Both the position numbers and the translations under genes were made by a program. From assembly GCF_014349105.1 (NCBI RefSeq), contig NZ_JACSJI010000003.1:186001-250000 (forward strand): a stretch of 64,000 nt of DNA, read 5' to 3'. This DNA is from Caulobacter sp. 17J80-11 (GTDB lineage: Bacteria; Pseudomonadota; Alphaproteobacteria; Caulobacterales; Caulobacteraceae). Within the stretch, counting starts at the first letter, position 1. Every line of letters begins with the position of its first letter. Positions 45,917 to 53,733 of this stretch are shown piece after piece. The notes under the pieces were generated by a model. That model did no database searches and was not told the DNA's origin. It was given only the letters and a program-made list of their open reading frames with translations.

Positions 45917-48900
45917 CTATTTCGCCCGCCGCGCGGCGCGTAGCGCCTCGTCCATGGCCGCGGCCAGCACCTCGACCTGGGGCGACTTGAGCATGGAGCC
46001 GTGGTCGCCGGGCAGGTCCAGCGCGGAGTAGGGGCCGCGCACCAGCGGCGCCCAGGCCCGCCCGGGATCCTCGACGTCGGGCCGCTCCTCCGGAATGAAC
46101 AAGGCGACGGCGCCATCGTAGGCTTGCGGTTCGTAGCGCAGGCAGGCCTTGCCGATGGTGGCGCCGAAGCGCGACTGCTGGCCGACCTCGGCGGGATCCA
46201 GCGCCTCCTCCAGGCGGCCGACCGCGCCGTCCAGCCGGTCGCGCAGATAGGCCCAGCGCTCGGCGCCGCGCCGGCGCGCGATCTGGCCGGCGTGCAGGCG
46301 CAGCTTGCTGGCGGCCATGGCCATGCGGCTCACGGCGCGCCGCTCGCCCGGATGCGGCGGGTCCAGCATCAGTACCAGCCCGACCTCCTGGCCCTGCGCC
46401 TTCAACTGGCGGGCGGTCTCGTAGGCCAGCACGCCCCAGGCGCACCAGCCACCGACGAAGTAGGGGCCCTGTGGCTGGATCGCGCGCATGGCCTGGATCA
46501 TCTGCGGGGCCAGGTCGGCCAGGCTGAAGTCGTCAGGCAGCGGCACGGCGGTGTCGCGGCGCAGGCCCAGGAAGGGCTGGTCTTTACCCAGCGCGTTGGC
46601 CAGCGGCCAGAACAGCGCCCCCCCGTTCAGCCAGAACAGCGGCGGGCGCGTTCCGCCGGGCTGAATGTCGTTCACCCGCGGCCGCGCCGGCGCTCCGGCG
46701 GCGGCCAACAGGCCCGCCATGCGGCGCACGTCGGGCGCGCGGAACACGTCGGACAGGCTCAGCCGCTTGCCGAACGCGACCTCGATGCGGCGCAGCAGCT
46801 TGGCCGCCAGGATCGAGTGGCCGCCCAGCGCGAAGAAGCTGTCCAGCGCGCCGACCCGGGGCACGCCCAGCACCTCGGCCCAGATCGCCGCCAGCTTGCG
46901 TTCCACGGCGCCCTTGGGGGCGATGAAGTCCGCGGCCGGCGCGGCGGTCGGCTCGGGCTCGCACAGCGCCTGCCGGTCGACCTTGCCGCTGCTGGTCGTC
47001 GGCAGGGCCGGCAGCACCACGACGCGGGCCGGGACCATGTAGTCGGGCAGGGCTTCGGCCAGCCGCCGGCGCAGTTCGGCGGGGTCGGGCGTGGCGGCGC
47101 CGGGGCGGCCGGACACGAAGGCGGTGAGGCTCAGCGCGCCGCTGACGTCGGGAGAGGCCTTGATCGCGGCGGCGCCGACCTCGGGGCAGGCGGCCACCGC
47201 CGCTTCGACCTCGCCGAGCTCGATGCGGAAGCCGCGCACCTTCACCTGGTCGTCGCGGCGGCCCAGGCACTCGATGGTCCCGTCGGCGCGCCAGCGGGCG
47301 ATGTCGCCGGTGCGGTAGAGCGTGCCGCCGGGCGCGACCGCGCGGGTGACGAACCGCTCGGCCGTGAGGTCCTCGCGATTGCGGTAGCGCAGGCCGACGC
47401 CGGCGCCGGCGATATAGAGCTCGCCCGGCACGCCGACCGGCGCCGGCGCGCCGCCCGCGTCGAGCACGAACAGCCGCGCGTTGGCGATCGGCCGGCCGAT
47501 GGGCACGGGGCCGGCCTCGCCCGCCGTGACCCGCTGGATGGCCGAATAGACCGTCGCCTCGGTCGGACCGTACATGTTCCACAGCTCGGCGCAGCGGGGC
47601 AGCAGCAGCTCGGCCAACTCGCGCGTCAGGGCCTCGCCGCCGCAGAAGATCCGCAGGCGCGCGCCGCCGGCCCAGCCTTCGTCCAGCAGGGAGCGCCAGG
47701 TGGTGGGCGTGGCCGCCACGGTGGTCACGCCGGTGGCCTGGATCAGGGTCGCCAGGCGGGCCGGATCGGCGGCGGTGTCGCGCGTGGCCAGGATGGTGCG
47801 CCCGCCCGTGACCAGCGGCAGGAACAGCTCGGCCACCGAGGCGTCGAAGGTCAGGGGCGCCAGCGCCAGCATGGTGTCGGCCGGCCCGAAGCCCGGCGTC
47901 TCCTGCAGGGCGCGGGTCAGGTTGACCACCGCCCGGTGCGGGATCTCGACTCCCTTGGGCTTGCCGGTCGAGCCCGAGGTGAACAGCACGTAGGCGACGT
48001 CCTCCGGCCCGACATCGGCGCCAGGCCGGCCCAGAGCCGGCAGGGCGGCTCGCGCGTCACAGAGCACGGTGCGCACGGCCTTCGGGAGGTTGTCGGCCAG
48101 ACTGCGCTGGGTCAGGGCGAGCGCGGCGCCGGCCTCCTCCGTCAGCAAGGCCAGGCGGGCCGGCGGCAGGGCGGGATCGAGCGGCAGGTAGGCGGCGCCC
48201 GTCTTCATCACCGCCAGTAGGCCGGCGACCTGGTCGAACGAGCGCTCCAGGCACACGGCGACGAGCTGCCCGCGCTTCGCGCCCGCCGCGGCCAGCCGAG
48301 CCGCGAGACGCTCGGCCCGGGCGTCCAGCTGGGCGTAGGTCCAGGTCGCGCCGTCCTCGAATTCCACGGCGACGGCGTCGGGCGTCCGCAGCGCCTGCGC
48401 CTCGATCGCGCCGTGTACGGTGGTCTGCGGGCAGGGGCGGGCGGTGTCGTTCCAGTCGACCAGCAGCCGCCGGATCTCCTCGTCCGGCGCAACGGGCAGG
48501 TCGCCCAGCGTCCGGTCGGGGCTGGCGACGGCCGCTTCCAACAGGGTGGTCCAGCCGTCGATCATGCGCCGCACGGTGGCCGTCTCGAACAGGTCCGCGC
48601 TGTAGACGAACCGGCCGATCACAGTCTCCGGGCGCTCCTCCACCTCAAGGAACAGGTCGAACTTCGACACCCCGGTGTCGACCTCCATCTGGGTCAGGTC
48701 CCAGCCGTCGATGCTGGGCGCCTGGGGCTGCATGGAGAACATCACCTGGAACAGGGGATGGCGGCCGGGATCGCGCTGCGGCGCCAGCTCGCGCACCACC
48801 CGGTCGAACGGCGCTTCGGCCGCGGCCATGGCGGCCAGCGCCGTCTCGCGCACCTCGCCAAGATAGTCCCGGAACGAACGCTCTCGCTGCGGGCGGGTGC

Positions 48901-51864: not shown

Positions 51865-53733
51865 TCAGTCCGCCGCCGCGAGGCGCAGGGCTTCTTCGTC
51901 GCTCATGCCTTCCAGCGCTTCGAGCAGGAGGCCCTCCACGGCCTCGGCCAGCCGGGTCACGGTCTTGGCCTCGAACAGGTGGCGGAGCGTCACCTCCACC
52001 CCGAACGCCTCGCGGGCGCGCATCACCACCTGGGTGGCCAGCAGGGAGTGGCCGCCGAGCAGGAAGAAGTTGTCGTCAATCCCGACCCGCTCCAGACCCA
52101 GCACGGCCGCGACGATCTCGGCCAGGCGGGCTTCGGTCGGGGTCTGCGGCTCCCGCGAGGGCGCGAGGCCGGCGAGGTCGCCGTAGCCCGGCTCCGGCAG
52201 GGCCGCCTTGTCGAGCTTGCCGTTGGCGGTGAGCGGCAGGGCGGAGAGCGAAGTGAAGCTGCCGGGCAGCATGTAGTCCGGAAGCAGGGCCGCCAGGAAC
52301 TCGCGCAGCGCGGTCGGATCGGGCGGGGCCTGGGCCGGGACGACGTAGGCCGCGAGGCTGCGCTGACAGCCGGTCTCGCGCGCCACGACCGCGCTCGCGG
52401 CGACGGCCGGATGGCGGTTCAGGGCGGCGGCGACCTCGTCGGGCTCGACCCGGTGGCCGCGGATCTTCACCTGGTCGTCGATCCGGCCGTGGAATTCGAT
52501 CTGGCCGTCGGGGCGCCGCCGGCCGAGGTCGCCGGTGCGGTAGAGCCGCGCGCCAGGCCGGTCGCTGAACGGATCGGGCACGAACCGCTCGGCGGTCAGC
52601 TCCGGACGGTTGCGATAGCCGCGGCCCACGCCCGTCCCGCCGATGAAGATCTCGCCGACCCCGCCGTCGGCCACCGGCTGGCCGTCCGAGTCGAGCAGGT
52701 GGATCTGGGTCTCGGCGATCGGGCGGCCGATCGGCGGCAGGACGGCGCCGTCGGCGTCGGGCGCGATCACGCCGGAGGTCGCCACCACCGTGCATTCGGT
52801 GGGGCCGTAATTGTTGACCACGGCGAACGGCAGGTCGGCGGGCGGGTAGCTGTGCAGGGTGTCCGCGCCGGTCAGCAGGAAGCGCAGGGCGGTGTCGGCG
52901 GGCCAGGGGTGGGCCAGCAGCGGCTCGGCCAGGGTGGTCGGCACGAAGGCGGTGGTGATCTGCCGCCGGACCAGCCAGTCTCCCAACGCCTGGGGCGAGG
53001 TTCGCACGTCGTCGTCGGCCAGCACCACGGTGGCGCCGGCGGCGAGGGCGGGCCAGAGTTCCCACACCGCGGCGTCGAACCCGAGGCCGGCGACGTGGCT
53101 GGCGCGGTCGTTCGGGCCGGTTCCGAAGGCGGCCTTATGCCAGAGCACGAGATTGAGCAGGGCGCCGTGGGTGATCTCCACGCCCTTGGCGGCGCCGGTC
53201 GAACCGGAGGTGTAGACCAGGTAGGCCAGGTCGTCGGCCTTGGGCGGGGCGGCCTCGAACGGCGGGCAGGCGTCGATCGCCGCAGCGTCGCGTTCCAGCA
53301 CCACGGACGCGCGGCCCGGACCGGCCAGTTGGTCGGCGACGTACGGCTGGGCGACGACCACCGGCGCGCCGGCGTCGTCGAGGAGGGCGCGGAGCCGGTC
53401 CTTCGGCCAGGCCGGGTCGAGCGCCACGAAGGCCGCGCCGGCGCGCCAGACCGCCAGGGCGGCGACGACGCGCTCGAACGAGCGAGGCAGGCACAGGCCG
53501 ATCGGCACGTCCGGCCCGGCGCCCAGGCGGCGCAGGTAGGCCGCCAGCCGGTCGGCGGCGCGGATCAGTTCGCCGTAGGACATGCGTCCGGCGTCGGACT
53601 CCAGGGCCGGCGTGTCGGGCTCTTGTCTGGAAAAGGCCGCAACCCTTTGCGGAACGGTCGCTTCGAGCGATTCAGGCGCGAACTCCTTTGGCGCCGCCGC
53701 CCGGATTCCGGCCGCGAGTCCCCCTGAAAGCAT
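51865..53733 (-). CDS. Free-standing NRPS adenylation-carrier (A-PCP) protein, predicted leucine
   Basis: A 622-residue protein with only A and PCP domains. A3 core YTSGSTGAAKG is at 174-184, YGPTE at 309-313, the A8 hinge GRIDDQVKIRGHRVEPDEV near 416-434, the catalytic Lys506 in LTANGKLDK, and the carrier has LGGHS with Ser563. Reading the ten pocket residues by alignment to GrsA gives D-A-W-F-L-T-N-V-V-K, one change from the known leucine code DAWFLGNVVK. The ATG at 53733 is chosen; longer starts add an unlikely Arg-rich tail. It is the first gene of the operon. Confidence 0.94.
   Translation of the reverse strand: MLSGGLAAGIRAAAPKEFAPESLEATVPQRVAAFSRQEPDTPALESDAGRMSYGELIRAADRLAAYLRRLGAGPDVPIGLCLPRSFERVVAALAVWRAGAAFVALDPAWPKDRLRALLDDAGAPVVVAQPYVADQLAGPGRASVVLERDAAAIDACPPFEAAPPKADDLAYLVYTSGSTGAAKGVEITHGALLNLVLWHKAAFGTGPNDRASHVAGLGFDAAVWELWPALAAGATVVLADDDVRTSPQALGDWLVRRQITTAFVPTTLAEPLLAHPWPADTALRFLLTGADTLHSYPPADLPFAVVNNYGPTECTVVATSGVIAPDADGAVLPPIGRPIAETQIHLLDSDGQPVADGGVGEIFIGGTGVGRGYRNRPELTAERFVPDPFSDRPGARLYRTGDLGRRRPDGQIEFHGRIDDQVKIRGHRVEPDEVAAALNRHPAVAASAVVARETGCQRSLAAYVVPAQAPPDPTALREFLAALLPDYMLPGSFTSLSALPLTANGKLDKAALPEPGYGDLAGLAPSREPQTPTEARLAEIVAAVLGLERVGIDDNFFLLGGHSLLATQVVMRAREAFGVEVTLRHLFEAKTVTRLAEAVEGLLLEALEGMSDEEALRLAAAD

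Follow-up and report, generated by a model that had tools for sequence, protein, structure and literature searches.

A 64,000-nucleotide stretch of the Caulobacter sp. 17J80-11 genome (contig NZ_JACSJI010000003.1, positions 186,001 to 250,000), referred to here as the window, contains an operon of four minus-strand genes at positions 45917-53733, separated by intergenic gaps of 14, 3, and 54 bases. The genes encode a stand-alone didomain protein consisting of an adenylation (A) domain and a peptidyl carrier protein (PCP), a cytochrome P450 (P450), a 4′-phosphopantetheinyl transferase (PPTase), and a nonribosomal peptide synthetase (NRPS) module with condensation (C), A, PCP, and thioesterase (TE) domains. 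The initial annotation described this gene set, and its open reading frames, order, strand, and gaps were verified. The Cys-type TE, the non-standard second A code, the adjoining tRNA-Leu gene, and the breadth of the family described below are additional to that annotation. The NRPS core motifs (HHLVFDG, GGHS, YTSGSTG/FTSGSTG, and YRTGD), the P450 motifs (GGQETT and HFCFG), and the PPTase motifs (GCDVE and MEALGK) are intact. At the WxxKEA motif, the window PPTase has MEA, as do those of loci L069 and L021, whereas KEA is found in 26 of 33 aligned rows.

Locus L069 belongs to a sister genome, Caulobacter sp. 17J65-9, that encodes the P450 and the NRPS at 94% identity and has the same tRNA-Leu gene on one flank and the same S46 peptidase gene on the other. 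The Pfam matches, the intact motifs, and the sister genome rule out chance open reading frames. The ATG at 53733, given as the A-PCP start in the initial annotation, is better supported than the longer frame starting at 53838 because the upstream ATG is absent from the sister genome. The C domain of the operon is the only one in the genome, the operon is the only NRPS, one of the two ACPS-fold proteins in the genome is from the operon, and no MbtH match was found in the genome. These features support the earlier description of the operon as a self-contained pathway.

Table 1. Features of the NRPS operon and its flanks in the window.
Feature	Position	Strand	Characteristics
A-PCP didomain, stand-alone	51865..53733	-	Code DAWFLTNVVK (leucine-type); C-terminal tail MSDEEALRLAAAD; Pfam AMP-binding and PP-binding
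Cytochrome P450, BioI-like	50597..51850	-	MTGGQETT and FSWAAHFCFG motifs; LGNLQHN where the family has LGNFQHN; Pfam p450
4′-Phosphopantetheinyl transferase, Sfp-type	49955..50593	-	Pfam ACPS
NRPS module C-A-PCP-TE, 1327 amino acids	45917..49900	-	Pfam Condensation, AMP-binding, AMP-binding_C, PP-binding, Thioesterase; second A code DAAAICMVYK
TE domain, Cys nucleophile (GGWCAWG)	45920..46693	-	Asp after strand 6 (LMLDPP), His in PGDHGS; AB3403 (4zxh) is the nearest solved relative
tRNA-Leu (TAA)	45816..45901	+	15 bases past the last stop codon; also adjoins the operon in L069
Inverted repeat GTTAC-N14-GTAAC	53865..53888		Upstream of A-PCP, kept in L069; possible operator

Predicted leucine loading and the P450

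The stand-alone A domain has the 10-residue code DAWFLTNVVK, which is identical at 9 of 10 positions to DAWFLGNVVK. The latter is given as a leucine pocket in an excerpt of PMC7524897 and, in an excerpt of PMC12283262, leads the list of codes most often seen in leucine, isoleucine, and valine domains. Relatives of the operon were collected by P450 similarity and the best 80 of the 136 loci found, which span seven phyla, were compared; the counts below are conditional on that query. An A domain positioned just upstream of the P450 with at least 300 aligned residues was readable in 65 of the 80 loci. The window code is present in 50 of these, and one or two positions are different in the other 15. 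The code supports the initial proposal that leucine is loaded on the A-PCP, and leucine-type activation by the stand-alone A domain is a well-supported prediction.

The 11 top fold matches of the P450 model (mean predicted local distance difference test score (pLDDT) of 82.5) are all P450BioI bound to acyl carrier protein (ACP), at 37-38% identity, and the top PDB sequence match is the same complex, in agreement with the fold search. Of 83 aligned P450 rows, 80 have an exact GGQETT and at least 78 an exact HFCFG. An A-PCP lies immediately upstream of the P450 in 71 of the 80 loci. Among the nine loci without an adjacent A-PCP, three start no more than 1.8 kb from the P450 (L054, L063, and L076), two have other NRPS domains intervening (L015 and L074), two contain a pair of P450s along with a divergent A gene (L029 and L047), and two have none within 2.1 and 3.7 kb (L052 and L075). 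The A-PCP/P450 pair is also kept in loci without a following C domain. The P450 and the following C or A domain lie in one open frame, meaning no stop between the domains in the raw frame, in 14 of the 80 loci, all with acidobacterial titles. Because no stop separates it from the NRPS domain that follows in these loci, the P450 very probably works inside the assembly line. The upstream A-PCP, the shared frames, and the P450BioI-ACP matches together give indirect support to the initial proposal that the P450 acts on a carrier-bound unit.

NikP1/NikQ and NovH/NovI are β-hydroxylation systems that combine an A domain and PCP with a P450. The window operon differs from systems of this type in having a P450 whose nearest solved relative is BioI and, as its partner, just one C-A-PCP-TE module accompanied by a dedicated PPTase. 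P450BioI (3ejb) also acts on a carrier-bound chain, but its substrate is a long-chain acyl-ACP and its reaction is oxidative cleavage, which differs from the chemistry proposed for the window. A P450 beside carrier-loading domains is the feature shared with NikP1/NikQ, NovH/NovI, PlyR, Sky32, and Tem23, and excerpts of PMC3943440 and PMC9321520 describe leucine as the substrate proposed for PlyR (polyoxypeptin) and reported for Sky32 and Tem23. The polyoxypeptin system differs in that, as described in the excerpted text, the A domain (PlyC) and the PCPs (PlyD and PlyQ) are individual proteins, and release of the completed block followed by its reactivation is proposed.

The operon is interpreted with reasonable, though not high, confidence as a self-contained two-module NRPS pathway in which leucine would be loaded, oxidized on the carrier, joined to a second amino acid (X), and released. 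The operon's PPTase would activate both carrier domains and the stand-alone A-PCP would load leucine. The BioI-like P450 would oxidize the thioester-bound leucine; hydroxylation is the most likely outcome, and Cβ is assumed as the site by analogy. The A-PCP would dock on the C-A-PCP-TE protein, whose C domain would couple the oxidized leucine to X. The A-PCP tail MSDEEA and the NRPS amino terminus LSxxKRxLLEKxxRG resemble a docking pair. The Cys-type TE would free the product, a modified dipeptide in the best reading, by hydrolysis or ring closure. Within this predicted scheme, comparison gives good support to leucine loading and to the link between the P450 and the assembly line; we infer the oxidation site, the identity of X, and the mode of release.

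Several points weigh against this pathway. The initial annotation likened the A-PCP/P450 pair to NovH/NovI and NikP1/NikQ, and the arrangement agrees with that analogy, but no P450 with a depositor label of amino-acid β-hydroxylase was seen in the top 60 PDB sequence matches or the top 50 fold matches, a comparison that relied on these labels and not on the NikQ or NovI sequences. No exporter was seen in the operon or its immediate flanks. A weakly GNAT-like gene, not an NRPS module, lies directly after the P450 in five loci and a stand-alone TE does so in three Chloroflexota loci, so the oxidized leucine need not end in a dipeptide. The chemistry assigned to the cassette is a prediction from its genes.

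Distribution and linkage to exopolysaccharide genes

The operon had been described as a minimal pathway of no recognized kind; however, the four-gene set is not unique and recurs in other Alphaproteobacteria and beyond. The P450 is present in 2 of 148 relatives' genomes (E up to 1e-100) and, in a survey of 385 alphaproteobacterial genomes (E up to 1e-140), in 2, with the window's own genome included in both counts, and wide vertical inheritance is not supported by these figures. It is present in 13 of 396 genomes of the phylum of L010; at most four candidates per genome were scored in this and the alphaproteobacterial survey. In a maximum-likelihood tree of the P450s (midpoint root), the clade that holds the window (support 97/95) also contains 16 rows from Pseudomonadota and one that is unplaced, and it stands apart from most other phyla. 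Two Nostoc plasmid loci (L088 and L089) have an AMP-binding protein, a P450 that is 40-42% identical, and polyketide synthase/NRPS genes in the same order. They were not counted as the same system; their AMP-binding protein matches the window A-PCP weakly and in pieces. In a Rhodospirillales relative, luciferase-like monooxygenase genes flank the operon on both sides (L002:6860-7900 and L002:15949-17034).

Neighborhoods in Acidobacteriota, Chloroflexota, Planctomycetota, and Actinomycetota hold polysaccharide genes (20 neighbor proteins scanned, several without a match). These include Bac_transf, Wzz, flippase-type (Polysacc_synt), Wzy_C, sulfotransferase, GH10, glycosyltransferase, and UDP-sugar dehydrogenase genes. 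Linkage to the priming glycosyltransferase, Bac_transf, was measured in 40 of the 80 loci (39 genomes, 41 P450 hits), which were chosen for flank length and spread after polysaccharide genes had already been seen in several. Bac_transf lies within 25 kb of at least 23 of 29 non-alphaproteobacterial P450 hits (1.32 expected) and, among the matches listed, of 0 of 12 alphaproteobacterial hits (0.36 expected). In a control using 27 of the same genomes, Bac_transf is near 22 of 28 P450-linked NRPS clusters versus 2 of 27 other NRPS clusters; contig ends hide neighbors of clusters in the test and the control alike, and several of the controls are near such ends. Given the choice of loci, the contig ends, and the relatedness of the loci, these figures indicate linkage and not a probability; owing to that relatedness, the Fisher value for the control comparison is not a true probability. 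The proximity of the cassette to exopolysaccharide priming genes outside the Alphaproteobacteria suggests that some of its products decorate surface sugars.

The GNAT-like genes that follow the P450 (L003, L021, L032, L050, and L081) encode one family of about 370 amino acids and begin 0 to 198 bases after it (for example, L050:11257-12381); one is cut by a contig end and one is split. Similarity to PF13527 (GNAT) is below the cutoff in two of the four members scanned, and NCBIfam gave no useful name for the family. Members occur elsewhere in the locus in L015, L025, L029, and L045. Where no NRPS module follows the P450, this family possibly transfers the oxidized leucyl group.

These neighborhoods raise the alternative that oxidized leucine, or a dipeptide containing it, is attached to a cell-surface polysaccharide, and that alphaproteobacterial operons do likewise with polysaccharide genes located elsewhere in the genome. 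The Bac_transf linkage and its control, the accompanying Wzz, Polysacc_synt, Wzy_C, sulfotransferase, and glycosyltransferase genes, the weakly GNAT-like gene right after the P450, and a Polysacc_synt_3 gene that adjoins the operon in Sphingomonas L072 all argue for it. Attachment is nevertheless unlikely for the window, where both Bac_transf genes of the genome are on other contigs, as no listed alphaproteobacterial hit is linked to Bac_transf, the TE domains point to release rather than transfer, and the related loci were selected after polysaccharide genes had been noticed in some.

Judged from its genes, the operon is a variant of the known A-PCP/P450 strategy in which a leucine-type cassette is combined with exchangeable partners; it is self-contained in the window, and its relatives elsewhere are linked to polysaccharide genes. 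A broader proposal, possible if doubtful, is that a mobile leucine-oxidizing module in soil bacteria of at least four phyla builds amino-acid or dipeptide decorations of exopolysaccharide with swappable acceptors (NRPS module, GNAT-like transferase, or lone TE), and that the window operon branched off from this module as an independent unit whose second amino acid has changed. The cassette is compact, widely dispersed, and small enough for whole expression. Should the link to exopolysaccharide genes prove functional, NRPS enzymes would gain a role in surface sugar making for which the papers searched gave no description, and named carriers such as Thermogemmatispora or Dictyobacter would offer a way to read the chemistry. 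Among the matches listed from open-licence PMC papers, no title or abstract start was found that describes such a cassette or its polysaccharide linkage.

Predicted timing of oxidation, second residue, and release

P450s often act late in pathways, and the gene order taken alone is compatible with oxidation by the P450 that follows release or targets the completed dipeptide instead of leucyl-PCP. The shared open frames and the conservation of the A-PCP/P450 pair, even without a following C domain, make this timing quite improbable. Oxidation of leucine on the carrier before its coupling to X is preferred.

The second A domain has the code DAAAICMVYK in the window and L069 (from a motif alignment; the code was computed for L069 and the window residues are identical there), and this code is found in no other locus of the set. 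It is not of the glycine type represented by DILQLGMIWK in an excerpt of PMC12283262. Within the P450 clade of the window, the 15 operons from other genera whose second code was readable all have a DILQ-type, glycine-like code, in contrast to the window, and X in the window is probably not glycine, as predicted from its code. The second-module code varies among the loci, with DILQ-, DVWH-, DIED-, DSAL-type, and other codes; the DVWH type is presumably serine-like. The DIED type is perhaps basic, based on its partial resemblance to an Arg pattern in the excerpt of PMC12283262. PDB alignments to LgrA added little.

The window module resembles AB3403 from Acinetobacter (PDB 4zxh/4zxi), which has the same C-A-PCP-TE domain order and matches over residues 43-1318. 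AB3403 is a glycine enzyme, unlike the window module with its non-glycine A code, and it is not known to have an A-PCP/P450 partner. The AB3403 TE is the nearest solved relative of the window TE by both sequence and fold (TE model pLDDT 88.6), but the identity in the fold match is 25%. The nucleophile position in 66 aligned TE rows, which include fragments and several rows per locus, is Cys in 38, Ser in 23, and a gap in 5. The window and L069 TEs have an Asp at position I, as determined from the alignment and predicted strands, and the window TE also has acidic residues after strand 7. The window thus combines the C-A-PCP-TE order, a Cys nucleophile, and an Asp after strand 6, as in AB3403. 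An excerpt of PMC11298585 places the Asp at position I in AB3403, which has a nucleophilic Cys, and at position II in ObiF and SulM, which also use Cys and form strained rings. In the other 12 Cys-type TEs of the clade, position I is His instead of Asp and strand 7 is followed by acidic residues; the nucleophile in L022 and L059 is Ser.

The Cys nucleophile shared with the ObiF1 and SulM thioesterases and the TEs of the clade that combine His at position I with acidic residues after strand 7 would fit a TE that closes a β-lactone or similar strained ring to give a reactive enzyme inhibitor, but this is highly improbable in the window: the first residue, and not the one bound to the TE, should bear the hydroxyl, 15 of the 17 second codes in the clade (window and L069 included in the total) are glycine-type, the window and L069 TEs have the AB3403-like Asp at position I, and ObiF is absent from the 50 best fold matches of the window TE. 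Ring formation by the window TE is possible but not the favored outcome.

Other features of the locus

None of the four proteins has a PADLOC match, and an anti-phage role was rejected. A promoter scan found no site, and terminator-like sites were at background level (3 versus 2.0). In the sister genome, a divergent gene whose product resembles dienelactone hydrolase (L069:6935-7822) separates the S46 peptidase gene from that of the A-PCP; it is absent from the approximately 250 bases at this position in the window. A small open reading frame at positions 6875-7204 of the window appears by eye to be 2Fe-2S ferredoxin-like and is a possible, but unlinked, redox partner for the P450.

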